A stretch of 64,000 nucleotides of DNA from Zanthoxylum bungeanum (lineage: Eukaryota > Streptophyta > Magnoliopsida > Sapindales > Rutaceae): NCBI GenBank assembly GCA_019454045.1, contig SKCR01007812.1, forward strand, positions 1,116,001 to 1,180,000. The letters are read 5' to 3'. Shown piece by piece: positions 37,858 to 59,186 of this stretch (position 1 is its first letter; each line of letters opens with the position of its first letter). The notes under the pieces are model-generated. The model had not been told where the DNA came from. It worked only from the letters and a program-made list of their open reading frames with translations, and made no database searches. A program made the translations under genes and the position numbers.

Positions 37858-38429
37858 AACGTCTCAGTTTGTCAATTGTGAATAAAGAGACATTCTGTTT
37901 CTTGCTCGAGTGAGTTTGGTATAGCAATGTCAGTAATAGGACAAAAAAAGAGAAGAATATAGGGGTATAAAAAAACTTACAGGCCAAATGTTTGTGTGAA
38001 GTAAATTGTATTGCTGCTGCTGCTGCCAACCAAAGATGGCAACAATGGGTTTTTTGTACAGTGCAGTGTCCATAGTGTGCCCATAGGGACTAATGCACCG
38101 TTTGGTGTAGAGTTTAATGAGTTTATAAGCTAATTTATATTCTCAATGCAATATTTATAAGTTAGCTTATACTCTCAATCAATACTACCAACCAATCAGT
38201 GTATAAAAGTTTGTTAATGTGTGTATATGTTAATACTGTTTACAAGATGAAATGAAATTGTAATTATCAGATTTTTAGATTATAATTTTCCGCATGAATG
38301 ATGCATGATTAAGACTGTTCTGTGCCATTGCTACAAGTGTTAGACGAGTGATGCCTTCACAAAAAACACAAACAGAAACACATACTTTATTCACAGACCA
38401 AGCTATTTAAGCTTGGTTAATTAGGTTTC
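37858..38429. other. 3' flank of EDR1-like gene
   Basis: 3' UTR and intergenic DNA up to the target duplication gtttc of the retroelement at 38430. No other gene seen. Confidence 0.5.
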
Positions 38430-38698
38430 TGTTAGGGACTGCATTCCATAGGGGGAGCAAGAAAGACCGCAAGATGGGCTTGGGCTCCCATGATCAGGAC
38501 ATTGCAGCCCAAGTCACGTTTCTGCTGGTGTATGAAAGAAGAAGATGAGCCCATTCACGTGAGGGGGGCAACTGGTGCAATCAATGAAGGAGGGTTGATG
38601 TGGATTGAGTTACGTTTTTTGTTTCTTCTTGGGTTGGGGTCTTGTGGCTCAGTTGGAAAATACAACAGAATGGGGTAAGTGAGGGGCTGAGGCCTTAC
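38430..38698 (+). repeat. 5' LTR of carrier element, first part
   Basis: Matches 47719 onward (ttagggactgcattccatag against ttagggaccgcattccatag, with several indels). It continues at 44993-45203 after the nested element. Confidence 0.88.
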
Positions 38699-39157
38699 TG
38701 TTGAAAATTCTTCAAATATCATTGGAGGATAAATATGTCTTTTGAATGAGAGGGTGCATTGGAAAGGTACAACCCTATGGAGGGTTGCACCCTTTCATGC
38801 CTTTATAAGGATGCATCCATGTTCACTCTCATTAATCGAAAAACAATAAAAATTTGTGAGTCTGATTTTACTGTTTTGAGTCAGAGAGAGTTCCTCCATT
38901 TTCCAGTTCGAGATCTTGTTAAGGAGTGCCCCTTGAACAAGATGAATCCGGGTTATCCTGAGAGAACATTAGCCACAAAACCCGTAGAGCACCGAGACAT
39001 GACTGATAAGTTCTTAAGGACATATAATCATCTCGACTCGGATAATTTTAATCAGGTTTTTTCTGGTTCTTAAAGTTTTAGGATTTACATGATTATGATC
39101 TGGTTTTAACTGAGTGAAGCATGCCAAATTAGATTTACAACACATATTCTTCCAACA
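38699..39157 (+). repeat. Left LTR of nested Copia
   Basis: TGTTGAAAATTC...TTCTTCCAACA. Lacks a 28-bp segment present in the right LTR next to gcaccct. Confidence 0.93.
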
Positions 39158-40447
39158 ATCTTAAGAACTTACCAATATTGTGTTGTAAAATCATTTTTCC
39201 CCCTATACATGATTCACGCATTGTATCATTCAATTTCATGACAAACCAAAAAAAAAAAACAGGATAAGTTTGACGAGAAAAAAAAAAGGAAGAAGAAAAA
39301 GATCAAACATTAGATTTAATTCATGTGACGTATCATAGAAGCCTTTATAGTTGGATCTAGGCAGTTCTATAATTCTATTATTTAATTTATGCTGCTTCGT
39401 CCTGGCGATATGATCACATTTATTTTGAATAACCTTTTCCAATGCGTCATTTTTTTATTCTGGTTAATTAACATATATCTATATGAAGGTCTATGACCTT
39501 TCGGCTTCCTAAGCCATGCATGTAATTTTTTTTTGCAACATTAAATAATGTCGTGGGATATTGTGTATCAGCTTCATTTAGAATATGTTTAGAAACTTGA
39601 AAGGTTATGATGATTCATTAACCTTATATTTAATTTAAAATAATATAATGGTGCGTGTAACATATTAATATTAGGATTACTCATTAATATTAATTTAGGA
39701 AAAGTCAAATGATTATTTTGTAATCCTGAAAGGTTTAAAGAATAATAACATAGATTGAGATTAAAATAAATTAATATATGAGATACATGTTATAAAATAT
39801 GCAATTAACATTATAGAATATATGTAATTATATTAACTTAGTAAAATCATATATTGTATTTTATAAACTTGGTAGTATATGTTTAAGTTAATATTAGGAT
39901 ATTCAATTATCACAAGTATACATTTATTTTATTATGATAAAGTTGAAAGTTATTTGTTAATTATATGTTGCATACTTGGTTGAGAATTAAAAGTGTAGTT
40001 ATACACAAGTAATTCCATCCAAGCTTGATTGAATTTTATATTTATATTGTTTTGTGACATTGAAAAAGTGAAATACTGAGTTTGAATTGCTAAGAGGTTC
40101 TATTGAGAAAGTAGTTAAATGATATTCTGTTAAAAATGCGATAAGAGCCTAAGTGGTCAGAGACTTAAGTGGTTACTCCGGACCCCCCTCGTCCTCTGGA
40201 ATATTCCTTTATTTACTTTTCATAAGAAATCTTGGTTGGAAATTCAAGGACTTGTGTTTATTGGTACTACTGTCCAATAAAACAACAAATGGATATTTGG
40301 TATATCACTTGAGACAAGATCATTTGTTGGTCGTTGTACAATTTGTCTTTTGTAGACTTATTGAACCCTGTTTGTTTCCAGTTACATATGGTTAGCGGAA
40401 ACATCACAGTACCGGTCTCTCATTGAGAAAAACCGGAGAAGTTTGGT

Positions 40448-43400
40448 GTGGCAAACTTCAAACAGTGGCAGAGCAAAATACTGTTCTACCTGACAACTCT
40501 GCAGTTGGCTAAGTACCTCAAAAATCCTATGGGTCCTGTGGAGGGTGAATCAGAGGCAGCCAATGAACTGCGAGAAGAGACATGGTCGTCTGGCGACTTC
40601 CTATGCAAGAACTACCTTATGAGTGGTCTTGATAATATCATGTACAATGTGTACCAAGGCATGTCTTCTGCGAAGATTCTTTGGGAATCTCTCGAGAAGA
40701 AATACAAAACCGAGGATTCCGGACAAAAGAAATTTGTCGTGGGTGGAATGATGTCTCACTTGGGTGAACTGCAGTTGATCATTCATGAAATACTGAATGA
40801 ATGAATGAAACTCTGTGAGACGTTTCAAGTTGCCACCATAATTGAAAAGTTGCCTCCATCATGGAAGGACTTCAGGAGCTATCTGAAACACACAAAAAGA
40901 AGCAGATGAGCTTTGAGGGTGTAAAGGGTAGCAAGAAGAGAACAGTGGAGCTGATTCTTCCCAAGCGAACAAGAAGTTCAAGGGGAAGTGCTACAACTGT
41001 GAAAAGAGCGGCCATATGACAAATGACTGCAGAAACAAGAAGTCTCAGGACAAGGGCAAGAAAAATGAGGCCTATGTCGCTAAAGATGAGCAGTTAACTG
41101 ATGAGATTTTAGAAATGAACATCTCAGCAGTGGTAACTGAAGCCAACTTGGTTGGAAATCCGAGAGAATGGTGGGTAGACACTGAGGCTACTCGTCATAT
41201 ATGTGCTTATAGCAAGATGCTTTCCTCGTATCAGAAGGTCGATGGCGGCGATCATCTGACAATGGGAAACTCGTATACCTCTAGAGTGGTTGGACAAGGC
41301 ACGGTGGTTCTGAAAATGATATCCGGAACGGAGCTTACAAAGAAGAATGTTTGCATGTTCCAGATATTCGGAAGAACTCGGTCTCGGGTTTGTATTTGTT
41401 TCTGACAAGATTGTATTGACAAAAAATGATGTCTATGTAGGAAAATGATACATCGCTGATGGCCTTTTCAATGACTGTCAATTGTGCTATTAATAAAGCT
41501 GAAACTTCTGCTTATATTATTGAGTCACAAAATGTATGACATGAGAGGTTATGACATGTTAATTATGATACAATGCGTACATTAATTAACATGAACCTTA
41601 TACCTAAATTTGCATTGATAGCCAACATAAGTGTGAGGCATGTGTTGAAGCAAAAATACATAGAACATCATAGAACGAAGTTCTGAACCCTTGGAACTTG
41701 TACACACTGACGTGTGTGACATGAATATTGTGCAAACAAGAGGCGGTAAAAAGTACTTTGTCACTTTTATCGATGAAAGCACAAGATTCTGTTAGGTGTA
41801 TTTGCTGAGAAGCAAAGCTGAAGCTATTGAGAGCTTTATACACTGAGAACAAAGTTGCAAATCAACTTGGCAAGGAAATCAAAAGAATCAGGAGTGATAG
41901 AGGTGGTGAATATGTTTCATCATTCGGTGAATATTGTTCTGTGCACGGAATTATTCACGAAACCACTGCTCCTTATTCTCCTCAACAAAATGGGATTGCT
42001 GAGTGCAAAAACCGAACGTTGAAGGAAATGATGAATGCCATGTTGACTAGTTCTGGTTTACCTCAGAACTTGTGGAGGGAAAGCCCTGCTTTCCGCGAAC
42101 TACGTTCTGAACAAGCTTCCTCACAAGAGATTGGACAAGACACTATATGAGTTGTGGAAAGGTTATGTACCTTCCTACAAATATCTGAAAATGTGGGGGT
42201 GTCTTGCCAATTGCCAAAGTGATGGATTCCTAAACCTAAGAAGGTGGAATATGACCCAAAACTGTTGACTGTATATTCATCGGATATACTTGCAACAGTA
42301 GTGCGTATCGATTCTTGGCACACAAGGATGAGATTCATGACATCAATCCAAATGTGATGATTGAGTCAAGGAATGCAATATTTTTTGAAGAGACATTTCC
42401 TTGTAAGGAAAGATAAAGAAGAGAGTCTTTCAAAAATATCTGTTGATACTGTCAAGGACAGTGATTAGGTTGACCAAGAGTCAAATCCGATTTTCTGACA
42501 TATTTGTTAGAAAATGAGCCTCAATGCTATAAAAAACAATGTCTTCTCCGGAGGCACCTCTGTGGAAAGAGGCTATTAACAATGAAATTGATTCAATCCT
42601 ACAAAACCATACTTGAGAGTAGGTTGATCTTCCTCCAGGTTGTAAGCCATTGGGCTACAAATGGATATTCAAACGGAAGATGAAAACAGATGGATCAATA
42701 GAGAAGTACAAGGCGAGGTTTGTCATAAAAGGTTATAGACAAAAAGAATGCCTTGTTTACTTTGACACCTATTCACCAGTGATTCGTATCACATCGATAA
42801 GAATGCTCATAGCCATAGCAGCTATATTTGGTCTTGAAATACATCAAAATGATGTAAAGACGTCATTCTTGAGTGGTGAATTGGATGAAGAGATTTACAT
42901 GGAACAATCAGAAGGGTTTAATGTTCCTGGATAAGAACAGAAGGTGTGAAAATTTGTAAAATCTTTGTACGGATTAAAACAAGCACCTAGACAATGACAT
43001 GAGAAAATTGACAAAGAGATGTTGTCAAATGGGTTTAAAACTGATGAGTGTGATAAATGTATGTACATCAAATCAACTCAAAAGGATATGTCATTGTATG
43101 TCTCTATATAGACGATATGCTGATAATTGGTAATAATCATGAGTTGATTCAGTCTACCAAGAAAGTGTTATCCAACAAATTTGATATGAAAGATTTGGGA
43201 GTAGCTAACCTAACTCTTCCTCTATCAAATAATACTGGCTTAAGCGTATCGCAATTAGAGTATTCAATGATCATCGGAAGTCTGATGTATCTCACAAATT
43301 GCACACGAACTGATATCGCTCAATCTGTGAACAGGCTTAGCAGATATACAAGCACTCCAGGACATAACCACTGGAAAGCCATAGTAAGAGTTTTGAGGTA

Positions 43401-43720
43401 TGAGAAACTTCAAAATATGGACTACATTACGAGAGATATCATGCTGTTCTAGAGGGATACATCGATGCTGAATGGATATCTGATACAGTGGATTCCAAAT
43501 CTACGAGTGGATTTATTTTCACACTTGGTAATGCAGCCGTGTCATGGAAATCCTCGAGGCAAACATGTTTTGCCTGGTCTACTATGGAATCAGAGTTCAT
43601 AGCGTTAGACAAAATAGCGGAAGAAGCGGAATGACTTTGAAATTTCCTGGAGGATATTCCTAGTTGGCCCAAACCGGTGCCAGCGATGAGCATACATTGT
43701 GACAGCCAATCGGCCATTGG
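40448..43720 (+). pseudogene. Copia gag-pol relic of the nested element
   Basis: In order: gag (NFKQWQSKILFYLTTLQLAK, WESLEKKYKTEDSGQKKFVV) at 40448-40804; zinc knuckle CYNCEKSGHMTNDC near 40990; protease site WWVDTEATRHIC near 41170, with Glu in place of the active-site Gly; integrase core pieces (FVTFIDEST near 41756; IRSDRGGEYVSSFGEYCSVH near 41890; YSPQQNGIAE); RT (GYKWIFKRKMKTDGSIEKYK at 42650; [26 protein letters not shown] near 43105); RNase H ([20 protein letters not shown] near 43465; [11 protein letters not shown]). Frames change several times and stops are frequent, so no polyprotein can be made. The RT active site YIDDM (usually YVDDM) itself is still readable. Confidence 0.9.
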
Positions 43721-44500
43721 GAGAGCCCAAAATACAATGTATGATGGTAAGTCTCGACATATACGTCGGAGACATAATACCATAGGTCAACTGCTCTCAA
43801 GTGGCATAATATCGATCGATTATGTTGAGTCGAAGGAAACCTAGCGGATCCACTAACTAAAGGTTTACCTCGAGAGAACGTTGAGAAGTCATCGAGGGAA
43901 ATGGGCTTGAAGCCTATAATCTAAGAATTGTCACTGTGAAAACCCAACCTAGCTGACTGGAGATCCCAAGATCTAGGTTCAAAAGGGACAACAGAAACTT
44001 TGTACAATTCAAAACAAGCACTGAAGAGTTTTGTACTCTTTCCCATTCCGATAATGACGATGAGTGCTGTCTGTCATGGTTAGGATAAGCTAAGGCTTTT
44101 AATGATCATTATATTAGGAGATGAGTCCTAATTGGGGTAAAGGCAGATTACCTATTCATAGTAGATCATCTATTTCAAGTAAAAAGTGAGGCCGCTTCCA
44201 TGGGAACTTTTAAAGGCGGGTTACCCTAAAGTATTTGATTAATCCAGGACCGTTGTTCAGGGCCGAAATGAACACAACCGTAGAACGGGAAATAGTCGAA
44301 GTAAAGCTGTGTGTTGGCGATTGTCTTGGTTTACACCAACGGCAGAACAATTCAAGACTATGGGTCACTGGTTTGCCAAGTAAATCCGATTGTCATTCAC
44401 TAGGAAAGGTTCAAGGCGAAAGCTACCTATTTCGATGCACCTTTAGTTCATGGAAACTCTCTCGAGTGTCTGTATGGATATTTGAAGAATTGTGAGGGAA

Positions 44501-44987
44501 TGTTGAAAATTCTTCAAATATCATTGGAGGATATATATGTCTTTTGAATGAGAGTGTGCATTGGAGAGGTACAACCCTATGGAGGATTGCACCCTAAACC
44601 AAAGGGTGCCCTTAAGGCACCCTTCCATGCCTTTATAAGGATGCATCCATGTTCACTCTCATTAATCGAAAAACAATAAAATTTTGTGAGTCTGATTTTA
44701 CTGTTTTGAGTCTGAGAGAGTTCCTCTATTTTCCAGTTCGAGATCTTGTTAAGGAGTGCCCCTTGAACAAGAGGAATCTGGGTTATCCTGGGAGAACATT
44801 AGCCACAAAACCCGTAGAGTACCGAGACATGGCTGATAAGTTCTTAAGGACAGATAATCATCTCGACTCGGATAATTTTAATCAGGTTTTTTCTAGTTCT
44901 TAAAGTTTTAGGATTTACATGATTATGATCTGGATTTAATTGAGTGATGCATGTCAAATTAGATTTACAACACATATTCTTCCAACA
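44501..44987 (+). repeat. Right LTR of nested Copia
   Basis: Same termini as the left LTR. Preceded by the short purine tract gtgagggaa. Confidence 0.93.
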
Positions 44988-44992
44988 CTTAC

Positions 44993-45203
44993 TGATTGTC
45001 TTGAAACTCTTCACCATTGTTTTATCTTTATGGAAACCTCTTAGGTTTTGATCTATTTTATGACGTTGGATATTCATGTTAGTGTTATTTGAATTTGAAT
45101 GAATATACTTTTCTGTATTGTGTGTTGAATACCAGGAGTTCCAATTACTAACAAATCTCTATCAAACTTTTCCAACAAATTTCAATCTCGCAAATTTTTT
45201 ACA
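44993..45203 (+). repeat. 5' LTR of carrier element, second part
   Basis: Continues the LTR after the nested Copia. tgattgtcttgaaactcttc onward matches 48096-48305; it ends near ttttttaca at 45203. Confidence 0.85.
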
Positions 45204-45211
45204 TTAATTGT

Positions 45212-45346
45212 TTTTTGAATGGCCTTCAACTTGAGGTAGTAAAGGGGATCAACTTCGCAGTGGTGGATTATTTAGATGATGCGATAGATCGGGCATTGTG
45301 GGTGGAACATATTAGGTTAAAGAAAAAACAATCTGATTGGGAATAA
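45212..45346 (+). pseudogene. Gypsy-type gag tail remnant
   Basis: Forty-four codons then TAA, directly after the 5' LTR: FLNGLQLEVV, then a stretch with YLDDAIDRALWVEHIRLKKK. This matches the end of Ty3/Gypsy gag domains (FL.GL...I...V......LDDA...A..VE). It is the only retroviral-type coding text in the carrier, and suggests a Gypsy parent. Confidence 0.55.
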
Positions 45347-45443
45347 CTTTGTGATAAATGGAGGGGTGATTTAGCACAGAAAAAAGTAAGAAAAGGAAAT
45401 TAGGAAGATAATCCAGGAAAAAGAAGATGCTACAGAGGGTCCT

Positions 45444-45877
45444 ATGGAACAGACAATACATGCGAATGGGGTAAAGGAGAAAAAACTAGAAAACGAAACA
45501 CCCTTTACAGTAACTCAGAGGACATGTTTTTCCTTTGAATCAACAAGGAACCAATTAGAGCCCAACAAAAAAATGGGGGACGAAGTAGAGATATACGATG
45601 AAGATAGAGACCGATTCTACTCACTATCGACAGACAATCAAAGCCCCAAACGCCTCTCGAGAAAACCCACGACGCAACTCGCCGATCCAACCTGTCAACA
45701 ACAACAACTGCCGCTGATAAAATGAGAAACGTAGATCAAACGGCAGGTCGTTCGCGAAGGCTGAGAATAGGGTTAAAGGACTCAAAGGGAAAAGAAAAAA
45801 GAGGTTCTAATACTAAATTAAGCCGGTTGGTGACAGAAGAAGACAAATGGAGCCGAGACACAGAAGGAACTCTCGCC
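45444..45877 (+). other. Unassigned open stretch before the RPL10 piece
   Basis: A 93-codon hydrophilic frame (45444-45725) is followed by a 52-codon lead (from 45722) that reads in frame into the RPL10-like fragment. I recognise no family; it may be further captured sequence or 5' UTR of the RPL10 transcript. Confidence 0.4.
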
Positions 45878-46314
45878 ATGGGAAGAAGATCTGCAAGATG
45901 CTACCGTCAAATCAAAAACAAACTCTACCCAAGGTCCCACTACTGTGTTGATCATCTCGTGAGCTGGGAGAAAGGGAACGTGTCGAGTGAGGCTTCAGAC
46001 GCTACTCGTATTGCTGGCAACAAATGCATGGCCAAGTTTGCCGGCAAGGATGATTTCCATTTGAGAGGAGTTCATCCATCTCATGTACTTAGGATTAATA
46101 AGATGCTTTCTTATGCTGGGGCTGATAGGCCACAGACTGAAATGAGAGATGCTTTTGGAAAGTCGCAGGGGACTTGTGCTAAGGTTGTTATTGGTATGGT
46201 ATTGCTTTATGTCCGTTGTAAGTACAATAATAGTCATCATGCTCATGAGGCCATTCGTCGTGCTAAGCTCAAGTTTCATGGTCGTCAAAAGATTATTGAC
46301 AACAGAGAGTGGGG
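45878..46314 (+). pseudogene. RPL10: Captured 60S ribosomal protein L10 cDNA fragment
   Basis: Starts [20 protein letters not shown], the RPL10/QM N-terminus. It then jumps from SHYC straight to [16 protein letters not shown], omitting about 25 residues between two Cys codons, and continues [54 protein letters not shown] and [15 protein letters not shown]. No introns. Many substitutions at residues that are nearly invariant in RPL10. It ends where the RPS2-like text begins, about 40 residues short of the normal C-terminus. Confidence 0.92.
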
Positions 46315-47183
46315 AATATCCACATACCAAGTCGTGTAAGGGGACTGGTAAGTGCAGCAATGCTATCGTAAGGATGGTTCCGACCCCACATGGTGTTAGT
46401 GGTATAGTGGCTAGGGTTCCTAAGAAGGTGCTGCAGATCACTGGTATTGTGAATGTTTTCACTTTATCTAGTGGAGTGACGGAAAAACAGAAAGGTTTTC
46501 ACATAATGAGAATGAGACAACAGAGTTTAATGGTTGGAGGTGTTGGTGGCCATGACCTATTTGCCACCTTTTCGTCTCTCTTTGGTAGTAGCCCAGTTGA
46601 AGGGGGTAACAGTAGGGAATTGGCACATGTAATTATATTTTCCGAGGATTTTAATCTCTTTGCCGGTGTTCGTGGTCAGTTTAGTCACACTAAACAACAG
46701 ATTCATGAAGCCTTTAATAATCAGCTTCTTGTGGAACTTGACGGGTTTGAGAAACAAGATGAGGTGGTTTTGATGGCTATTACAAGAAATATCAAGAAAA
46801 GTGATGAGGCGTTACAGCAGCCTGGTCGAATGGATATAGTACTTAATCTTCAGAAGCTGATGCAAACAAAAAGGGAGAAGATATTGTGTATTGCTGTTCA
46901 AGAAATCTTAGGTGAGGAGTTCGTTGATTTAGTAAGTTGGAGGAAGGTTATCGTGAAGACTTCCCTTTTACGGCCCATAGAACTAAAACTTGTTCTTGTG
47001 GCTTTAGAAGGTAGCAATTTCAGGAGCACATTTCTCGATAGAAACAAATTTATGAGTTATTGTAGTTGGTTTGCTACATTCAGTGGTGTTGTCCCCAAAT
47101 GGTTTCGGAAAAACAAAATTATGAAGAAGATAAACAGAAAGTTAATGGATCATCTGGGGTCAACATGGAAGAAAAAGAGGTGA
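46149..47183 (+). CDS. Chimeric 344-codon open frame across RPS2, DnaJ and FTSHI5 pieces
   Basis: One ATG-to-stop frame. The first roughly 55 codons read the RPL10 fragment out of frame. The remainder reads the RPS2-like, DnaJ-like and FTSHI5-like fragments in their native frames with no stop between them. Whether it is transcribed or translated is unknown. The LTR could supply a promoter. It lacks the Walker A region of FTSHI5, so no ATPase activity is expected. Given the many substitutions in conserved sites it may simply be a frame not yet interrupted. Confidence 0.4.
46315..46485 (+). pseudogene. RPS2: Captured 40S ribosomal protein S2 cDNA fragment
   Basis: In the frame with [13 protein letters not shown] the text continues [40 protein letters not shown]. 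This corresponds to the RPS2 (uS5) core, KPHTVPCKVTGKC...[22 protein letters not shown]. About 57 residues, no introns. It joins directly after the RPL10 fragment in another frame. Confidence 0.88.
46500..46619 (+). pseudogene. Captured DnaJ (type A Hsp40) fragment
   Basis: [20 protein letters not shown] then GGNSR resembles the Gly/Phe-rich segment of plant DnaJA proteins (GGHDPFDIFSSFFGGSPFGG...SSRG). Short, about 27 clear residues, so the assignment is moderate. In frame with the preceding RPS2 and following FTSHI5 pieces. Confidence 0.6.
46617..47162 (+). pseudogene. Captured FTSHI5-like AAA protein fragment
   Basis: Reads [106 protein letters not shown]. This is the second half of the AAA domain and the following region of the plastid FtsH-like, probably inactive protease FTSHI5. 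The family text VEDFDLFAGVRG has become [12 protein letters not shown], and the RPGRMD arginine has become Gln (QPGRMD). About 180 residues, intronless, no stop. Confidence 0.88.
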
Positions 47184-47456
47184 CTTACAGCTACACTTGG
47201 CAGCTCAAGCAATGAATTCAAGTAGAGTTAAGGAGATTTTACAGAATTGTGATACGAGCGAAGTTAAGAAGTTGTTGACCAACCAAAATCAAGAAGGGGA
47301 GATCCCTGTCTATGTGGCTGCAGAGATTGGGTACGCTTTGATTGTTGAAGAAAGGCTTCAACATATGGACCTTGAAAAAGCATTTATCGTAGCTAGAAAG
47401 GAATTTGATTAATTTCTTGTGGCAGCTAAACAGGACCATATTGGTTGCAAACTCTC
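47163..47456 (+). pseudogene. Captured ankyrin-repeat protein fragment (ITN1-like)
   Basis: [72 protein letters not shown]. This matches the first ankyrin repeats of plant ITN1/ACD6-type proteins (DLHLAARAGN...NQ.GETALYVAAE.G). The segment aaaagcatttatcgtagcta plus the next 15 bases is repeated directly at about 47377 and 47457, marking another junction. Confidence 0.85.
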
Positions 47457-47718
47457 TAAAAGCATTTATCGTAGCTAGAAAGGAATTTGATTCATACCTT
47501 GTCGGGAAGTTTCTTTTCTTTGTATATACTCGGGCAATAGTAAATGATGATGCTAAAGAGATGGACAAGACTGTGGCTGAGAAGGGGACATACATGATAT
47601 TGGGAGTTCTTATAATGGCATCGAAAGCTGAGAATGCGATTGCATACCCTTCTATGTTCGGGCAAAAATTATTTGAACTCGGACTTGAGGACAAGTCTGT
47701 TGTTATGGAGGAGGCAAT
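47457..47718 (+). other. Unidentified captured segment before the 3' LTR
   Basis: Open text KGTYMILGVLIMASKAENAI, AYPSMFGQKLFELGLEDKS, VVMEEAMLGTA looks like real protein sequence, but I do not recognise the parent gene. It ends at the purine tract and the 3' LTR. Confidence 0.5.
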
Positions 47719-48305
47719 GTTAGGGACCGCATTCCATAGGGGGAGCAAGAAAGACCGCAAGATGGGTTTGGCTTGAGCAAACTGCTACCCATGATCAGGA
47801 CATTGCAGCCCAAGTTAAGGAGAAGCCAGAGTCACGTTTCTGCTGATGTATGAAATAAGAAGATGAGCCCAGTCACGTGAGGGGGACAACTGGTGCAATC
47901 AATGAAGGAGGGCTGGGGTAGATTGAGTTAGTTTTAGGAAAATATTGTTATATATTTAGTAATCATGAGATGGAGAGACAATTCCGTTTTTTGTTTCTTC
48001 TTGGGTTGGGGTCTTGCAGGTCAGTTTGGAAAATACAGCATAATGGGGTAAGAGTATGGGATTATCAGTGAGTAAGGGGCTGAAGTCTTACTGATTGTCT
48101 TATAACTCTTCACCATTATTTTATCTTTTTGGAAACCTGTTGGGTTTGGATCTATTTTGTGACGCTAGATATTCATGTTAGTGTTATTTGAATCTGAATG
48201 AATATACTTTTCTGTATTGTGTGTTGAATACCAGGATCTCCGATTACTAACAAATCTCTATCAAACTTTTCCAATAAATTTCAATCTGGCAAATCATTCC
48301 TAACA
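47719..48305 (+). repeat. 3' LTR of carrier element
   Basis: 587 bp, TGTTAGGGAC...CCTAACA. Longer than the reconstructed 5' LTR (about 480 bp) because of several indels, including about 60 bp around gaaaatattgttatatattt. Confidence 0.9.
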
Positions 48306-48627
48306 GTTTCCAACAGTAGAAGCTTAATCAGCTTCCCCCACGGTGAAGAAAGAAGTACTTCCTCAGGTCTATAAACCCAGCTCTCCCCCAGGACCTTTAG
48401 AAAAAAATGAGGATTGTATTAAGTCTCGCTAATGTAAAGCTAATCGAATTCTTATGATTAAAAAATAATGACAACACAGAGATACGTGCATGATATAAGT
48501 TGGTGCAAAGCTCTATCTAGTAGATACAATCATTCATTACATATCAGTAAGTTTGCGATACAATCTCTGAGTCATAAATATCAAATAAGTTTGGTACATA
48601 CCGATTCCTATTCACAAATTATTCGTA

Positions 48628-49170
48628 TCAATTGTGTTCTGATTTTTCTACAACTGGAAAATCTGTTGATAAAAAACTGTAAACATATAAATCTTGCAGT
48701 TTTCCCTTAAGATAGCTGTATTTACTCAGATGACCTTCCCGTAGGAATCCAGATTTTTCCAACACTTTTTGGGAAGCCTTATTTTCTATATCAACATAAG
48801 CTTGTAATCTTACCACATTAGTATAGTCCTTGAACACTTCATTAAGAGCCATTTTCACTGCCTTGGTTGCAATTCCATGGCCCCAGTACTTCACAGCTAT
48901 AGCATACCCTATATCAGCCCTACACCTGTCGTCACCCGAACCAGGAAAGATTGAAACAAACCCGATCGAACGGTCATCGATGCATATGGATCTACGCCAA
49001 GGGTGGGGGATACAAACATCCTTGATGAAGGTCAAAGCTTCTTCCTTGGATGTGAAAGTCTTCCATCTGAGGGATTTTGTTACTTGATCATCCCCTGCCC
49101 ATAACATGAAATCATCAACGTCAGTTTGCTTGAATGGACGGAGGGTGATCCTTGATAAATCAATCTCCAT
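48628..49170 (-). CDS. GNAT-family N-acetyltransferase (p20/RimJ-like)
   Basis: Single exon, 180 residues, start MEIDLSRITLRPFKQTDVDD at 49170; the frame is open further upstream but has no better ATG. GNAT enzymes move acetyl from acetyl-CoA to an amine. Features: LRPF..TDVDDFMLWAGDD at the N-terminus, ADIGYAIAVKYWGHGIATKA (about 95-115; the WGHGIA loop is the acetyl-CoA pyrophosphate-binding motif), then NKASQKVLEKSGFLREG (about 142-158), characteristic of RimJ/RimL-type and plant p20-like acetyltransferases. Substrate unknown. Intact and of normal length. It lies about 320 bp right of the gene-capturing retroelement, which is therefore in its 3' flank. Confidence 0.88.
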   Translation of the reverse strand: MEIDLSRITLRPFKQTDVDDFMLWAGDDQVTKSLRWKTFTSKEEALTFIKDVCIPHPWRRSICIDDRSIGFVSIFPGSGDDRCRADIGYAIAVKYWGHGIATKAVKMALNEVFKDYTNVVRLQAYVDIENKASQKVLEKSGFLREGHLSKYSYLKGKLQDLYVYSFLSTDFPVVEKSEHN

Positions 49171-49830
49171 TTGATGAGAGAAATTATGATTAAAAAAAAA
49201 ATGAATAGCGATGATTCTCACAGCAATGCTAGTAAGGTCAAGGATTGTTTATAAGATTGAGATGGACCACTTATAGAATATTAAATTCATTTCTATTCTT
49301 ATTTTAAAAACTCATACAAAGTAACACAGGGCCCCACTGCCACAAATTATGACATAGGCTTAAATTATGACATAGGCTCTGCCACCTCCAAAGTGCAATG
49401 GAGGCCACCAACCTAGGCCATGAGCTTTCTTGATCGCCCATTGACCCGTGCAGGTAAGTATGGTTTTGAGTTGCTTCACAGTCCTTATTTACATCTATTG
49501 TCAGAGCCAATGTCATACTCATATCTCTTTGATATGGGATAAAAATTAGTTTTCACATAGCTATATGAAGCAATTGTTGTGTTTATGGTTAAATAAAATG
49601 AAAATAGAACATATTCTAAGATAGCAAAAGATCTAAGGCTATCATATAGAGGATAAAATCATTGAGATAAGCTCTAGTGGTGGCAACAATCATTCAGAAA
49701 CTGTGATGAAGAACTCCCTATAAGAGTTTAAGTTCCATGAAAGCAAATTTAAACTTGAGAAATTCAAGAAAAAGGTACCATGTAAATGAACATATTATAA
49801 TTATTCCCTGTGCTCGTGAACTGGTGGAAT
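49171..49830. other. Intergenic between GNAT and SDE3 genes
   Basis: Contains the GNAT 5' region and the SDE3 3' UTR. Nothing else recognised. Confidence 0.45.
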
Positions 49831-52800
49831 TTACTTCCAACCATCGGACCATTCAGCTTCATCAGTGACTGGTTGTGGAATTTCTGGACACTCTTTTGCT
49901 TCAAATGATTGGCCCCATGAACCTGTGTTAAAGGAGTCCGGATCCTCAAATTCGTTACTTGAGTTTTGTTCTGGGTTTGATACGACATCTGCACAGTCTT
50001 GCCTTTCAGGAGCAGGGCAGCCCTGGTAAGAATTATTGTCACAACAATGCCACAAAAGCTTGTTCCAATAAGGGTCCTGCGTTCAACAAAAAACTCTAAA
50101 TCATTAATGTGCTCAGCTGCCTAAGTGATCATCAGGATTTGCATAGCTAGACAAGATTAAAGTTGCAGAAAAGCTGAAAGAGGGTCTCTTCAACTAGTTC
50201 TGTAATGGTGATCGATAAGTGGACAACATAAAAGGCGTTGAAAGATACTGTTATTAATGGCGATGGACCGTGATTCAAAGAATATACTGATGAAGAATGT
50301 ACACCATTTAATACTGGAGAATCTGCTTATTTCATTCATCTGGATTTTTCCAAACCACTATACAATCTAAATGATTAGGCAATTGTAATAGTATGATAAG
50401 CAAGCATATTAAATTACAGCATTAGAAATGTACTTAACAAAGGATGTGTAAATACCTGACATACTATGTGAGGATTCCCAACAATAATAAGCAGCGATCT
50501 GGCACGAGTAATTGCAACATTAAATCTCCTTGGATTGCTAAGAAATCCAAGACAGTAAGTTTTGTCAAATTCATTGTGTTTGACTGTTGATCTGACAGTT
50601 GATACAATGATAACCTCTCTCTCTTGTCCTTGAAATTGTTCTACAGTCCCAACCTTAACATCTGGCATATCCCAAGTTTCAAGAACTTTCTTGATCTTGA
50701 GGACCTGCTGGCGGTAAGGTGTTATAACCCCAATATCTATCTCATTGAGATCCATATTTTCTCTCAGCTTGTTGATGATCTCAACAACCTTGCTTGCCTC
50801 GAATCTGTTAAACCATGATGGATTATTGCCTTCTCTTTCATCACAGCCTTGAATGCCAAAGAACAGAACAGGAAACTCTTTGTTTGGAAGGAAATCCACC
50901 TGAGCACTTAAAGAGGAAGAGGCATCATCTTTGCATGCCAGTAACTCCCCTTTATAGAAAAGCTTCGAAGGGAGATCTAGAATTGCCGGATGACATCGAT
51001 AATTTCTCACCAGCTTTGTAACATAACCTTTGTCTTCATTGTGGTAAAATTTACATTCGAAAAGCCTTTGAAGATATGATTTTCCCAATCCGAAAGCCTC
51101 TGCATCTTTTGAATATATAACAGGACCAAGTTGTTTCGGGTCTCCAGCAAGAACAACAACTGTTTGTTTTTTACAAAGGTGGGCTATAGGAATCATACAT
51201 TCTGGCTCTGAAGCTTGGCCAGCCTCATCCAAGAAAATATGGGAAAAATTACCGCGCTTGATACCATTTGCATTAAGTAGAGATGAACTCATATAAGTAG
51301 AAATGATGATCCTATAACGCTCCAAGGCCTTCAGTGGAGGACTTTTGAAAATGGACTCCTCAAAAAAGCAAAAGCGAATATAATCAGGAGGAACATCCTC
51401 ATAAGGGCGGCTAGTAGCATTCAGCCTGAATATTTCATTCTCTTTAATTTCAGTAACTTCGCTAGAGATGAGTCTCTCTAATATGTGATCTGCTGCACTG
51501 TTTGAAGCAGCACATACAAGAATCCGGCTATTCTTTCTAGTTGAATATAGTTGTAAGATTGCTTCCACCATAGTCATAGTTTTACCTGTACCAGGAGGCC
51601 CATAAATCACATAGGGAGGCGCACCTTTGCAACCAAGGATAGTCTCAACAGAATGCATCTGTTCTTCATTTAGACTAGTAAATGGCACAAATGGGGTTAC
51701 CTTAGTTAATCTCCTAGGGGTGGATTGTGATGGAAAGAGAAGATTTGATTCTAAATTTTCTGCTGCTTGAACTGCTTGATACGACCTCCTCATGTTTATC
51801 CTATTATATGTGAATCTGACATTGTACAAGCTGTCATTTCTGTGACGAGTGTGAACTTCTTTGGCAAATTTCAGAATCACTTCATCAGCCTCAACACTGT
51901 AGATATAACCCTGTAAACATACCTTACTTAATTTTGAAAAAGAAAGATTAAGCATACAATTATTCAGAATTCAATAATGGAAGTTCATTCAACTAAGCGA
52001 CTGAAAGTAATTAAGATATCCATGCCCGAGAATAAGCTGACAGAGGCTCTGCTCAAGCTATAGTATATTTGAAAATAAATGACAAAAAGAGAAATTTAAT
52101 CAACCGTTCATTAAGGAACTCAACATCATGCAATAAAAATAAATCATCAATATGCAGCATCATGACTTAAGAAGAAAGCCGAGGTGAAACTTCATTGTCC
52201 CGTTACTTTAGAAGCAAGACTTGGCCGGGCAAGGAAAAAATAAAAAATTTCAAATTGATTGATGTTTCAACTTCCATGCATGCTAACATCCTCTTCTATG
52301 AGAAGAAAGAGTTCTTCCAAGAGAAGGAGCAAACCTGATATACAGTATTGTCATCAGCAAGCTTCACAAAAACGTGATCCCCATGTACAAGTGAAGGCCT
52401 CCTCTCAGCCAAACCTGGGACATCAAGAGCCAGTAAGTGAGGCCCTTTCTTCCTCATGGGGACACAATCCATGTTATGGCACCTCATATCTTCCTGCAAG
52501 AAAACTAAACAATTTCAGATCCAACTAAAATAAGAGAGCAGTTTAACGCTACTAACTTAACTCACATTACCTCTAAATGCAGCTCTTCCATAACAAGCAA
52601 TGTACTGAAAAAGTCAAAATAATTCTTCCTCACTAGACCCTCAACTAGAACTTGAGGGACTTGCTTATTTTCTACCAGCTCACGAACATCCTTCGGGATT
52701 GGAAATTCAGGGAGCTTATACTTGAAACCTTGTGCTGTCGCTCTAGCAGGACGCGAGGAAACAACATATTCATCAACTGCAAACTGCTTTTTTCTTGGCA

Positions 52801-53356
52801 CTCTTGAATATGGCCGGTTAGAAGCCAGAGACTGAGAGACATTGTCTTCAGCCAATAGGAATACCACGCGTTCAAATCTATCATCCCCTATATCAAAATG
52901 AACCACAGATGTGTGCAAACCCATGTCCTTAGGCTTGCAAGATAACCAAATGGTTAAAGTCCTGAGAGGATGAAGCACTCTGTCCTCAATGGAGAATCCC
53001 TCTAAGAAGCCTTGAGTATTTCCTGAATCTGAGTTTGCTGGTGGCGGTTCCATTAGAGATAAAGAGAAAGAATTTGCAGGATTTGAGCAATAGATTTTAA
53101 TTCCCCACAGTTCAACTGGTTCACGAGTAGTGTTCTGTATTGTAATTGAACACTTGGAAGTTTCTCCTACAGAAATTGACTGAGGTTTCCCTTGAACAAA
53201 AGGAAATGGAATGGATAAAATAACAGGACCCTCGTCACTTGGATCATAGCTCATCATTGATTGATCATCTTGAAAATCAATAAATCCAATCTCTCTTTTT
53301 TCTCCAATCACAGAAAATTCATCACCCCAGGAATCCTTTTCAATATTGCTCATCAT
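49831..53356 (-). CDS. SDE3: RNA helicase SDE3
   Basis: Four coding exons on the minus strand: 53356-52571, 52493-52335, 51910-50456, 50076-49831; 881 residues, all joints phase 0. SDE3 is a superfamily 1 (Upf1-like) helicase that works with RDR6 to amplify RNA silencing; animal relatives are MOV10 and Armitage. Visible: N-terminal [12 protein letters not shown]; Walker A GPPGTGKT (about 395); FLDEAGQ (Walker B, DEAG box); [10 protein letters not shown] (motif III); [15 protein letters not shown] (motif V); [18 protein letters not shown] (motif VI). The C-terminus [10 protein letters not shown] is Trp/Gly-rich, and SDE3 C-termini are known to carry GW motifs that bind AGO proteins; SWGQS and DGWK may be such sites. 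The first ATG of two adjacent ones is used. No disruption seen; probably functional. Confidence 0.93.
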
Positions 53357-54080
53357 TTAAATAGTATGGATCAAACTAAGTTCCTGAAATAGTGAAATGC
53401 TTAACATATACCAATAAAGTAAACACTAATGACTCATCAAATAATGATACAACACTAATTCAAAAGGGATGTTAAAATAAGTCACTAGATTATAAAGAAA
53501 CAGACATGTTATGGGCAGTGAAACAAATTTTAATAACTCAACAACAACAACGATCAAAATGAAAAACAGATGAAACAAAACTTAAAAAAAAAAATAATAA
53601 TAACACAACCAATGAAAATCACAAGATATAATAAGATTAAACAAACTATAACAGGTACCCAAAATCTGAAAAGAGATAACAAGAACAAACCTTTTATTAA
53701 AGAACACCTTAAGAACTTATATGGGCAGGGAAAAGTTTGTAACTTTGAAGGAGAGACTGAGGTATTAAACAGAGAGAACCCAGTTGAGCCAATGGAATTT
53801 TCAGTGAATATTTTAATGCTGTATTTGATTTTAAAGGACCTGGACAAGATTCTGCCTTTAGAAATGAAAAGGACAGAAGCACAAGATGAGTGAGTAAAAA
53901 CCTAAAACTGGATTTCATAAAAACAATGTCTTTGGAAGTTTCAGAATCTGATATTTTTGTATCGGTACGGAGAATTAAAGCATATCTGTCAACACGTGGC
54001 AGGATGTTACTGGGAACTTTCTGGAGTCATTAAAGAAGCTGAGGGGTCAGTAGTCACTGACTGACTAAATTTATAATTAA
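53357..54080 (-). promoter_or_regulatory. 5' region of SDE3
   Basis: Probably 5' UTR, possibly with an intron, and promoter. Short open frames here have no recognisable content. Confidence 0.35.
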
Positions 54081-56700
54081 TCAATAATAATAGATGAATT
54101 TATTGATTAAAATGTGATATATATTCATTGAAGGATCTCATAGAATATGTCTCATATAATTTTTTTTTTAGTTCATTTAAAAAAATTAAGTTAAAATCTG
54201 ATAATATATCAAGTTTATAAAATTTTTCATTTGTAATCCTAAGTTAAAAATATTTTATATTCAAAAACTAGTAAAAACATATATTTTATACTAAAATTTT
54301 CAAAAAATCTAATATATTTTCAAATTTTAACTTAAAAATTGATAGATATATAATAATTTCCTACTTAATTTCGTAGAGAAGGCTAAACCAAAATGGAACT
54401 TTTTTAAAAAATGAGAAACAACAAGCTGAATACGTTAAATTTAAAATAGTATTACATATCTAATAATGTAATTATTAAAATTTATACTAAAAATAATATA
54501 ATTGGTTTAAACAAAGTAGAAGAAAAGCTAAGTTTGTTTGTTAATTCGTTCATTCTGAGTTTATATCTATCATAGATCATTAATTAACTTAATAATTTCA
54601 CTTTCATATCTTAAAAAGTGATTAAAAAATTTCTGAGAAATTTGCAATAATGATTTTTTTTTTTAAATTCACAATTCTCTCAGTCTCGAATAAACTCCTA
54701 CCACCTTGTTTTGAGTCTTTTGAGTCTTGACCGCGTAAATAGTTGACATAGGATTTGGGATGGTAGAAACGGCACCATGATGTGCCGTTTTTTGGTTTTT
54801 CTTTCGTTTTTTGATTTTTGTTATGGGAAATTATTATTTTTCAGAAAAATAAAATAAATATCGTTTCTTATGAAAATTTTAAAATCTTTCTATTTTTCAT
54901 TTGAAGTTTTCAAATGTATTTATTTTTTCATTTCTATAAAATGAAAACCGAATAATAGAGTAAAGTAATGATTCAATCTTTTCCACTTTTAATGTTTTTT
55001 AAATAATGATTCGATCTTGCATTGTCTTGATTTCTCACTGCACTTCCTTTTGCCATGCTGGAGGTGATACGGACTGAGATTTTATTTTTCAGGCAACTCT
55101 TTTTTCAGCTGTTTTGATATAAATAATAAATGACTTGTAATTCATAAAAATAAAAATAATTAGATTTTCTTATTTTCATTGTCAATGCATTTGTTGGCAT
55201 TGAAATCATCAATGAAAATTATAATTGTAAATGTTAATTATTACTATGACAAGGCTCACACTCTATGCGGATTGAATATATATTTTAAGTATTGATTTTA
55301 TAAATGTTTCGGATCTTATCGGTTGTATAGTCTAAATGAAACAATGATTTACTTACATATAATATATATACTTCATTCGTTTGTCTCTCAGTTCTCAAAT
55401 AATATTTTTAATTCATTGTGTAAAAGCTAATAGTCAGAGTCAGCATCCTGAAACACATTAAATAATAAAAAAAAAAAAAACTTATTAAAAAATTAAAAAT
55501 AAAATAACAAACAACAATATACCCGAATTCCAAAAAAATTGCTAGGTTTTATGGGCGACTACTATTTAGGTTACTTATTTAAATAGAATATTATATTTTT
55601 ATATTGTAAAATATTTTTTATTTTAATAATTTATTATTATTATTTTAATTTTATCATTTAATAATAAAAATATTAATTGTAAAGATTATCTGTCACATAT
55701 ATTTTTTTATTTTAATAGAAAATTATAATATATATTCTTATTATAATATATAATAAAAAATTAATGGTAGAGATTAAGTGTCAGTGACGCGATGAGAAAC
55801 CTTAAAAAATTTAACACACACACAAATATATATATATATATATTTATTTATTGTGTTTGTCGGATTATCTATGATATTATTCAAAAATTAATGAGATAGT
55901 ATAATATGTTTTATTATTATAATGGAGTTCTTATTTAATAAAATTATTAATTTGATTTTATAATTTATAGTGTTTTTTAATTGTAATAGGATAATATAAT
56001 ATATTTTCTTATTATAATACAATTCCTATAAATTATAATATATATTTTTGATATAATATGTATTTTTATTTAATAAAAAATTAATTGTAAATATATTTTA
56101 ATTTTATAAATTAATAATAAAAAATTTATTTTAAGTGTCACGTATATTTTTTAATTTAATGAGAGATTATAATATATTTTCTTATTATAATATGATTCTT
56201 TATTTAATTTTATAATTTAATAATAATAAATTAATTAATTGATCAAATTAATAGATTTCTTACTTTAATAGTTGATTACGTTTTTATATTTTAATAGGTT
56301 TTTTAATTTTATAATTTAATTAAATAATTAATTAAATTAATAAGTTTCCATGAACTCAATGAACCTCATGGAAACTTATATGTATGTAAAATAATTTTTT
56401 TTTTTTTTTTTTTTTATATATTCAAGTTTGAACTGCTTCCAGTTTATTCAAACCTGAAGTACATGGCTGCAGTGTGGATGCACAAAAGCACTGCTTAGAA
56501 ACCGATGTTGCTGCATATAAATAACACATTCCATTCTGTTGTATGAGTTTTTGTAGTCTTCATTGCAGCGATTTTCATCCTGGCAGGTCTAAATTTAGTG
56601 GTACTCTTTCACTTCTGCCACATTGCACAATGCATTCATCTGTTTTTCAAGCACAGTATTAATTAGCTTTTGGAGAATTTACTTAATAATAATTATACCT
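54081..56700. other. AT-rich intergenic DNA
   Basis: About 2.6 kb of very AT-rich sequence with imperfect ttataatatat tracts, a short TA repeat near 55830 and a T-run near 56396-56415. No gene recognised. The imperfect repetition of cttattataat text between 55600 and 56250 suggests old local duplication. Confidence 0.5.
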
Positions 56701-56903
56701 AAAATAATTGAACCAATGATTAAAAATTGTACCAGATGCATAGATTAGGAGGACAAGCAAGAAGCAAAGTGGAAAGCTTTGCCATCTTTGAACTCTCACT
56801 GGGGTGGCCTTTTGTGAACCATCTTGGCTGCTTGCCATTTATACTAACAGAACTGCTACACCAAGCATAAATACTCGTAAAAGTGGACCTTTTTATTGCT
56901 TGG

Positions 56904-58541
56904 TTACCAGTAATCCAAGCAGGAGCAAGAACCTTCTTCAAAATGGTGATAATGTTTCCGATCTCGAACAGATATTTTCCTTTTGAAAACTTTTGAAATA
57001 AGCTTCATGGCTGAATGGCAATCATTGCAGATTCGAATATTCTTCACAATCCTTATTTCATATCCAGGCTTGGTGCAGATTAAACCAAAAGCCAAGGCTA
57101 ATTTCTCACTGTGGTATCCAATCACAGTTTCCTTTTCCTCCTCTTCAATGTCAAACATAACTGCTCCCGTCTCTGCATTATACCCATAATTCTTTATCTT
57201 TTTGACAACTTCTTCCCACACCTGGTAGATCTCCTCTGTCATTTCATGGGATCTATCTCCTGCCAAGAATTCATGAACAACACCATCCACTTCAATCAAA
57301 CTATATCCAGGGGCCCGTTTTATTTTTCTTTTTTTCATAGTTTTTCTGACTTCTTCAGCATCCTCTCCTTTCATTGTTTCAGCATAAATGTTCGACAATA
57401 AAATGTAATTCCCATCATGGTTTTCATGAGATTTCATCAGCATATTCCCAATTCTTTGACCCATCTCAGCATTTCTGTGTACCCTGCAAGCAAAAAGGAG
57501 GGTACCCCAGATGACATTATCAGGTTTCATTGGCATTAAAGCAATAAAATTTTCTGCCTCCTCCAACAAACCAGCACGGCCGAGAAGATCAACCATGCAG
57601 GCATAGTGATCCAACTCTGGTCTAATTCCATGAACATCAAACATTGAATGAAAATAGTAAAGTCCCTTCTCAACCCACCCTAAGTGACTGCATGCACATA
57701 AAACTGCTATGTAAGAGACACTATCAGGTGAGATACCCTTTCCTTTCATATTCTCAAAAAGCTGAAACGCTTCTATACTGCGTCCATTCATTGCCAGGCC
57801 AAAAATTGCACTCGTATAAGCTGAAACATCTTTCTCCCCAGATGAATGAAACACCTGCATTGCTAAATTAATGCTTCCACATTTGGCATACATATCTATA
57901 ATAGCTGCACAAAGTATTGAATCTAATTTTATACATTTCTTTCGGATATAAGAGTACACCCAATTCCCATGATCCAAAGCTCCTAACTGTGCGCATGCAG
58001 AAAGCACACTCACAAAAATGGCAGAGTTTGGTTCCAAATCCAATGATTGCATCTCTCTAAACAAAGCCAAAGCTTCCTTTGGCCGCCCATTCTGAGAAAA
58101 CGCAGAAATCATCACAACCCAAGAAACCAAACTTCTCTTTGTCATCTCATTAAAGACCCTACAAGCATCGTCAATAAAACCAAACTTAACCAATCCACCA
58201 AGGACACAATTCCAAGAAACATCATTTCGTTTAGGCATGTTGTCAAACAGCTTAAGCCCTTCCAAAATCTCACCACTCCTTACATACCCACTAATCATCG
58301 AATTCCACGACACAACATCAAGATCACCACTCTCATCAAATACCCATCTCGCGTCTCTCACCCTCCCGCAAACAGAGTAAAAATGTATCAGAGAATTTTT
58401 AACAAACAAGTCATATGCAAATGAATTTTTAACTACCATCCCATGTAACTGCCTACCCAAATCAAAATGAGCACAACTAGCAAAACCCTGAAACAGAAAC
58501 GTGAATGTAAAGTTATTCGGAACAACATTCAAGCGAATCAT
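56904..58541 (-). CDS. Pentatricopeptide repeat protein, E/DYW class
   Basis: Single exon. From the ATG at 58541 it gives 545 residues, but the same frame is open to a TAG at 58747-58745 and carries PPR sequence (FGDINYALLLLFQSSTPPQV, FLFNTVIRGLARIS) with no ATG. The true start is therefore missing, spliced or changed. PLS-type PPR repeats include NSLIHFYSVCGRVRDARWVF, DVVSWNSMISGYVRSGEILE, MIDMYAKCGS-like text, and HYACMVDLLGRAGLLEEAE. The E region then ends in a DYW domain: GYHSEKLALAFGL (zinc-binding HxE), CNDCH (CxxCH), final CSCLDYW. DYW PPR proteins act in plastids or mitochondria, usually as C-to-U RNA editing factors. The usual final GDYW is LDYW here. The organelle-targeting peptide is not seen. 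Confidence 0.88.
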   Translation of the reverse strand: MIRLNVVPNNFTFTFLFQGFASCAHFDLGRQLHGMVVKNSFAYDLFVKNSLIHFYSVCGRVRDARWVFDESGDLDVVSWNSMISGYVRSGEILEGLKLFDNMPKRNDVSWNCVLGGLVKFGFIDDACRVFNEMTKRSLVSWVVMISAFSQNGRPKEALALFREMQSLDLEPNSAIFVSVLSACAQLGALDHGNWVYSYIRKKCIKLDSILCAAIIDMYAKCGSINLAMQVFHSSGEKDVSAYTSAIFGLAMNGRSIEAFQLFENMKGKGISPDSVSYIAVLCACSHLGWVEKGLYYFHSMFDVHGIRPELDHYACMVDLLGRAGLLEEAENFIALMPMKPDNVIWGTLLFACRVHRNAEMGQRIGNMLMKSHENHDGNYILLSNIYAETMKGEDAEEVRKTMKKRKIKRAPGYSLIEVDGVVHEFLAGDRSHEMTEEIYQVWEEVVKKIKNYGYNAETGAVMFDIEEEEKETVIGYHSEKLALAFGLICTKPGYEIRIVKNIRICNDCHSAMKLISKVFKRKISVRDRKHYHHFEEGSCSCLDYW

Positions 58542-58922
58542 TCGATAAAACAATTGTAAATAAGTTGAGAGAATGTATTGCCGGGAAATGCGCGCGAGGC
58601 CACGAATGACGGTGTTGAATAGGAAGACTTGAGGGGGTGTAGAGGATTGAAAGAGGAGAAGAAGAGCGTAATTTATGTCACCAAAGGATTGAGAGCTGAG
58701 AATGAGATGATGGGTCTGAAAGAATTTGGCGGGTGATTTAGGCCTCTAATTATAAGCTGAGTGTGGGTTTGTTTGAATTGTTGCATGGCTTTGCATTTGT
58801 AAAGAAGCGGTGTGAATGCAAAACCAGCAGCCATCATTAAAATTATACTAAAAGATTATCAAGAAGTATCCTGTTTTTTAGGACCATAGAGATGGAATGC
58901 GCTTTCAAAAAAATGCACTCAT
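58542..58922 (-). other. 5' extension of the PPR frame and upstream DNA
   Basis: 58542-58744 continues the PPR reading frame without an ATG. Beyond it is the presumptive promoter. The repeat array starts at 58923. Confidence 0.5.
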
Positions 58923-59186
58923 CAAGTGCTTCTTCAAAAACCATTGCAAGTGCTTCTTCAAAAACCATTGCAAGTGCTTCTTCAAAAACCATTGCAAGTG
59001 CTTCTTCAAAAACCATTGCAAGTGCTTCTTCAAAAACCATTGCAAGTGCTTCTTCAAAAACCATTGCAAGTGCTTCTTCAAAAACCATTGCAAGTGCTTC
59101 TTCAAAAACCATTGCAAGTGCTTCTTCAAAAACCATTGCAAGTGCTTCTTCAAAAACCATTGCAAGTGCTTCTTCAAAAACCATTG
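58923..59186. repeat. 24-bp minisatellite, 11 perfect copies
   Basis: Unit caagtgcttcttcaaaaaccattg (24 bp: caagtgcttcttcaaaaacc then attg) repeated 11 times without a visible change (264 bp). Because 24 is a multiple of 3, five of six frames stay open, giving artefactual repeat peptides such as ASASSKTI. The flanks carry diverged half units (aaaatgcactc, gtgcattcttgttc). Confidence 0.95.

Follow-up and report, generated by a model that had tools for sequence, protein, structure and literature searches.

Here we describe a long terminal repeat (LTR) retrotransposon of Zanthoxylum bungeanum whose internal part joins pieces of at least five unrelated host genes. The element occupies 38430–48305 of a 64,000-nucleotide stretch (contig SKCR01007812.1, positions 1,116,001 to 1,180,000; hereafter the window) and is bracketed by a GTTTC target-site duplication (TSD). 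All host fragments are in element sense, lie between a gag remnant and the 3′ LTR and, for two donors, lack introns that are present at the host loci. The same mosaic is found at three insertion sites, one block of host sequence is nested within another, and related loci carry other genes. We think it probable that the element belongs to a non-autonomous Ty3-like LTR lineage that has repeatedly switched template onto spliced host messenger RNAs (mRNAs).

Spliced host-gene fragments between LTRs

A sequence-only reading of the window, made without database searches, had placed an LTR element and its duplication at 38425–48310, and the outer limits it gave are exact to the nucleotide. Two unstranded copies of GTTTC (38425–38429 and 48306–48310) flank paired LTRs with TG..CA ends, which with the 5-bp TSD identifies an LTR retrotransposon. 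The 5′ LTR (plus strand, as are all stranded features below) is in two parts, 38430–38698 and 44993–45195, and both align with the 588-bp 3′ LTR (47718–48305) at a Kimura two-parameter distance (K2P) of 0.081 (472 sites), bearing out the similarity foreseen between 38430–38698/44993–45203 and 47719–48305.

From 5′ to 3′ the cargo consists of RPL10, RPS2, the N-terminal part of an ITN1-like ankyrin gene, a DnaJ-like piece, FTSHI5, more of the ITN1-like gene and the remainder of a dihydrolipoyl dehydrogenase (LPD) gene. By protein comparison and host loci, five donors are firm (RPL10, RPS2, ITN1-like, FTSHI5 and LPD), in keeping with the earlier count of at least five unrelated genes, and a sixth (DnaJ-like) is likely. 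The RPL10 (uL16) fragment (45850–46311, right end approximate) begins a short way before the ATG, presumably in the 5′ untranslated region, and crosses the spliced joint of exons 1 and 2, with a net loss of about 75 bp between 45941 and 45952; its best PDB match is a plant homologue (4v7e chain CI, E = 3.4e-58). RPS2 (uS5; 46320–46478), recognized by protein comparison and by host-like genomic places, matches 8auv (E = 1.1e-15). The first ITN1-like piece (46481–46542) was placed by donor alignment and a shuffle test, and is followed at 46543–46610 (ends approximate) by about 25 codons that we take to be DnaJ-like, for which a PDB search gave no match. The stretch previously called DnaJ is thus ITN1-like in its first part and keeps that label in the remainder. 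FTSHI5 (46611–47166; best PDB match 8xku chain C, E = 1.8e-69) comprises three exons joined without introns (46744–47166) and a part matched as protein (46611–46743), whose exon lies outside the donor stretch compared. The second ITN1-like piece (47171–47445) matches host-locus DNA (83.8% over 277 bp); the identity rests mainly on this match, the ankyrin Pfam score being under its cut-off. A 45-bp local duplication (47376–47502; copies 47376–47420 and 47458–47502) reaches into the LPD remainder (47489–47623), of which about 45 codons are left here and more in two further copies of the mosaic, L010 and L013; the LPD of L013 matches 1dxl (E = 1.4e-29). The sequence-only reading had also noted pieces without a name: the 3′ one is LPD, clear in L013, and the 5′ one is gag backbone, not a host gene. 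Some of the PDB query proteins bridged frame breaks or an insertion; on unbridged pieces Ribosomal_L16, Ribosomal_S5_C and AAA score above their Pfam cut-offs, and the DNA matches to host loci hold without bridging. The frames of the window cargo are broken: over 45850–47623 the three frames contain 46, 33 and 19 stops.

Searching the same genome with the mosaic, with the best 40 of 86 candidates scored, gave at least 61 matches. Among the matches listed are host loci of RPL10 (contigs C3125, C5255 and C49925), FTSHI5 (C22663, C14248 and C3439) and the ITN1-like gene (C39646, C10754 and C3745). RPS2 matches fall at 14 places (four element copies, nine host-like at 63% and one weak), and five of the 27 LPD matches are host-like, at 54–56%. 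The intron comparison covered RPL10 and FTSHI5, with the donor exon structure of RPS2, LPD and DnaJ outside it. Intron 1 of host RPL10 (locus L036) and two introns of host FTSHI5 (L052), all with GT..AG ends, are precisely missing at the element's exon joints; neither gene aligned as a contiguous, intron-bearing donor, and the description of the fragments as intronless holds for both. The ITN1-like piece matches up to the presumed end of a donor exon and not into the intron.

These joints bear on capture at the DNA level, whether through repair or through a Helitron or Pack-type element that was later enclosed by LTRs. According to the available text of PMC13317346, pieces of host genes occur in Helitrons and Pack-MULEs, and the joint between FTSHI5 and ITN1 is nearly blunt, both of which favour such a route; against it, three donor introns are precisely gone, and exon-only captures by LTR elements, including terminal-repeat retrotransposons in miniature (TRIMs), contrast with intron-bearing PACK-MULEs in the part of PMC4717578 available. 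We regard a DNA-level origin as very unlikely.

Nested fragments and further copies

The captures are layered. In all four copies of the mosaic (two of them alleles) the DnaJ–FTSHI5 block lies between two ITN1-like pieces: the donor ITN1 alignment runs to base 120–121 ahead of the block, and resumes after it at base 128 in L010 and L013 and at base 148 in the window and its counterpart L009. In the four copies the N-terminal match reaches scores of 49, 54, 62 and 70; each copy was tested against 1,000 mononucleotide shuffles, none of which did as well (best shuffle 25–27). Because ITN1 flanks DnaJ–FTSHI5 on both sides, it was already present before DnaJ–FTSHI5 arrived.

A split ITN1 piece is at odds with a single transcript, which tells against read-through transduction of one adjacent chimeric locus whose long transcript was then spliced. 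Spliced, same-sense pieces are likewise expected of that process, but five or more unrelated donors would have to be neighbours; those host loci that were located are on different contigs, and no locus with the donor genes adjacent was found among the matches listed. We hold it to be highly improbable.

A genome search for copies with the same LTR, as the sequence-only reading had suggested, located the mosaic at two further sites with the same fragment order: L010 (C11693, with an allele on C9461; TSD CAGCC) and L013 (C21716; TSD CAGAC). The mosaic therefore occupies three insertion sites, each with a different TSD. Through internal deletions L010 and L013 are without parts of the backbone and RPL10. 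The K2P of the LTR pair is 0.044 in L010 and 0.0068 in L013, which has moved recently, its LTRs being just 0.7% apart; at the rice rate of 1.3e-8 substitutions per site per year this would correspond to an age of some 0.3 million years, as a guide value only.

Internal K2P is 0.108 between the window and L010, 0.131 between the window and L013, 0.099 between L010 and L013, and 0.036 between the window and L009. From copy to host it ranges from 0.09 to 0.27, mostly above 0.13 (RPL10 0.09–0.19, FTSHI5 0.15–0.19, ITN1 0.17–0.27). Since the host distances mostly exceed those between copies, they suggest, without proving it, that capture preceded the separation of the window, L010 and L013 copies; an 83-bp RPL10 piece of L010, with a host K2P of 0.09, does not fit this order.

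The internal parts of L010 and L013 exceed 2.5 kb, largely from later insertions. Within the cargo these are, by eye, a solo LTR (TSD AGTAG), a PIF-like miniature inverted-repeat transposable element (MITE; TAA), a hAT-like MITE (CTCACAAG) and one more; with TSDs seen by eye in three of the four, we rejected retained introns as the source of the extra DNA. Among other LTR matches, L012 and the LTR of L014–L016 were not counted as copies of the mosaic: their flanks resemble TSDs, and they are probably solo LTRs. L014, L015 and L016, 76–78% like the window's LTR, have identical 20-bp flanks on three contigs, so that this LTR sits in duplicated sequence or a repeat. L017–L021 match just part of the window LTR.

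Backbone and related loci with other cargo

The gag remnant and family backbone (45196–45775, right end approximate; about 580 bp) is common to sister loci, with a tblastn match at 45197–45611 and DNA similarity to L044. Retrotrans_gag scores 16.7 bits on the L013 copy, under the Pfam cut-off of 24.1. We considered and rejected a host gene as the source, because the stretch recurs in sister loci. The internal part had been said to lack pol, and none was seen there, where the gag remnant stands alone, in an analysis that included no search aimed at pol; nearly all of its 2.5 kb is assigned to other pieces (the exception is about 45776–45849), and there is no room for pol. The element thus lacks the gag and pol genes of an autonomous Ty3/gypsy element, and with a 588-bp 3′ LTR and a 2.5-kb internal part it exceeds the size of a TRIM (about 1.5 kb or less). 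Ahead of the 3′ LTR lies a tail to which no source is assigned (47615–47717); PDB and Pfam searches gave it no credited match (weak ones to penicillin acylase, E = 0.03). It ends in a purine-rich tract, the candidate polypurine tract GGAGGAGGCAA (by eye). An 18-nt primer-binding site (PBS) motif, which presumably pairs with tRNA-Tyr, adjoins the 5′ LTR exactly in L010 and L013 and with one mismatch in L009, and is absent from the window copy.

Through its matches elsewhere in the genome, the gag remnant pointed to eight sister loci (L040–L044, L050, L051 and L055), each read over about 3.2 kb, among which are three cargo groups besides the window's. L044 (C31915) and L043 (C28471) are 89.5% alike across 1862 bp, and both contain HSP70 and a piece of an alpha/beta-hydrolase; L044 additionally has PPR repeats (PDB match E = 3.8e-18, Pfam under cut-off) and, at E = 0.001, a piece resembling LPD. 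L041 (C11732), its allele L042 (C11566) and L040 (C18287) are 90% alike and carry a PPR piece, above the Pfam cut-off in L041 and L042 and under it in L040, which has a 630-codon open frame starting in its LTR. L050 (C30911) has an RRM piece in one open frame with the gag end (524 codons, running to the locus end). No Pfam match was found in L051, and none downstream of gag in L055. The SET match of L055 was not counted as cargo, being upstream of gag, nor were Chromo in L050 and ABC2 in L041, both under the Pfam cut-off. L040, L041, L042 and L043 have the PBS motif without a mismatch, and L044 has it with three. LTR pairs enclose L044 (C31915: 225128–225536 and 228424–228830, 92%) and L040. 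Such other cargo in related elements suggests a lineage that repeatedly picks up host mRNAs.

With the LTR of L041 as query (best 40 of 53 candidates scored), two LTR matches were found on at least 12 contigs. Six of the 12 (C5373, C19888, C18287, C39947, C22893 and C20134) have an LPD-like match that precedes the 3′ LTR and shares its strand, and six (C20141, C50243, C3474, C40702, C37760 and C326) gave none. Two more contigs pair one LTR with an LPD match, adjoining in C31276 and 1.1 kb before the LTR in C20438. The gap between LPD and LTR is 101–124 bp in six of these eight contigs, and 246 bp in C22893, where the match is shorter. Open frames with the LPD match span 814 (C19888), 544 (C39947), 490 (C18287), 489 (C22893), 233 (C5373) and 187 codons (C20438), with frame ends outside the sequence seen and possible continuation into LTRs; C20134 and C31276 have stops. 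The longest is in a two-LTR sister (C19888: 106644–110058) with an internal part of 2486 bp.

The sister loci also bear on whether processed pseudogenes made by long interspersed nuclear elements (LINEs) landed one by one inside an old LTR element. LINE retrocopies occur in plants, and that origin would account for pieces that are spliced where compared and for one block nested within another. Every piece, however, is in element sense, the sister loci show the same pattern with other genes, and the inner joints have no poly(A) or TSD by eye (no dedicated search was made), whereas true later insertions in L010 and L013 do have TSDs by eye (AGTAG, TAA and CTCACAAG). We consider such serial insertion unlikely.

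Later changes at the window locus

A Ty1-copia element (38699–44987, TSD CTTAC at 38694–38698 and 44988–44992) was later inserted into the 5′ LTR; its own LTRs differ by a K2P of 0.043 (459 sites), and by eye its coding part has stops. Contig C32048 (locus L009) has the mosaic element at identical flanks without this insertion; given the same insertion and flanks and the absence of copia, it is an allele or homeologue. Its outer LTR pair has a K2P of 0.066, and it keeps the 5′ LTR end and PBS motif that the window copy has lost. Comparing 45192–58969 of the window with C32048, we observed about 4% difference over much of the element, with zero differences in two 250-bp bins of 47500–48000 and in an unbroken run of 17 such bins between 49000 and 53250; the pattern looks like a mosaic of two haplotypes, through gene conversion or assembly. 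Elsewhere in the window, ARAGORN calls a tRNA-like gene with a two-base anticodon at 60858–60927, which is probably spurious.

Discussion

The evidence supports the template-switching interpretation put forward in the sequence-only reading, the switching itself being what we infer. A Ty3-like non-autonomous element would be mobilized by enzymes supplied in trans, and its RNA packaged along with host mRNAs that had been spliced. The reverse transcriptase, while making the minus strand, would jump to a host mRNA and then back, adding exon-only sequence downstream of the gag remnant and ahead of the 3′ end, and the composite mosaic would then be retrotransposed onward. Capture was layered: DnaJ–FTSHI5 went into an ITN1 piece that already existed, and LPD may have been gained early, as LPD-like sequence is found close to the 3′ LTR of several sister loci.

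Several observations weigh against this account. The joint between FTSHI5 and ITN1, the sole one compared with the DNA of both donors, shares 0–1 nt by eye and so gives no support to switching at homology, and the shared words at the RPL10/RPS2, RPS2/ITN1 and ITN1/DnaJ joints were deduced partly from protein. Host distances are uneven, so that some host loci may be paralogues of the true donors. Sister cargo was identified by domain and structure matches, with donor exon structure outside the comparison; L050, L051 and L055 gave no match to the PBS motif, and among the matches listed a second LTR was not seen on the contigs of L041, L042, L043 and L050. No autonomous partner element was found, and no successful search was aimed at one.

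A bolder form of the template-switching account is a lineage with fixed end modules (5′, the LTR, PBS motif and gag remnant; 3′, in some of its members, an LPD-derived module beside the LTR) and an exchangeable middle refilled by spliced host mRNA. Members with long open frames through the LPD-like piece, such as the 814 codons of C19888, could then make gag–host or other fusion proteins. We rate this as possible though doubtful, being less probable because six of the 12 two-LTR contigs are without an LPD match; if true, the lineage would amount to an exon-shuffling cassette in retrotransposon form. Accounts of exon shuffling through LTR elements have mostly come from single cases such as Bs1. 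A multi-donor family with nesting and varied cargo would make capture order, joints and rates measurable in one genome, and would put to the test whether capture is accidental or habitual in a single system of reverse transcription and packaging. With L013 a recent mover (LTR K2P 0.0068), activity could be tested in the living plant.

In a literature search over titles and abstract openings, with subscription journals mostly outside its scope, we found no published five-donor LTR element or exchangeable-cargo lineage. A review of additional open reading frames in plant LTR elements cites, in its available text, Bs1 and the same genome surveys (PMC7264820). In maize B73, 425 intact LTR elements have gene fragments, and the accessible part of that report gives none of the 425 with fragments from more than one standard nuclear gene under the survey conditions (PMC2774510); gene-fragment cargo is common to those elements and ours, which differs by its multiple donors. 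Genes in rice and sorghum LTR elements have been multiplied by retrotransposition and are described, in the text available, one gene at a time, whereas the window element is a spliced mosaic (PMC3726574). Closer is the soybean TRIM GmaRetroS15, a small LTR element whose cargo is intron-free exon sequence from three genes, one of a set of gene-carrying TRIMs of 1,172–1,449 bp (from the available part of PMC4717578); the window element differs in its 2.5-kb internal part, gag remnant and larger number of donors. Maize Bs1, for which the earlier reading had cited about three gene fragments, is an LTR element in which parts of three host genes form a chimeric gene (PMC13317346), exons only (PMC4717578), again by the accessible text of each. 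Like Bs1, the window element has several host-gene pieces between LTRs, intron-free where compared (RPL10 and FTSHI5); it differs from Bs1 in having at least five donors, a nested block and sister loci with other cargo.

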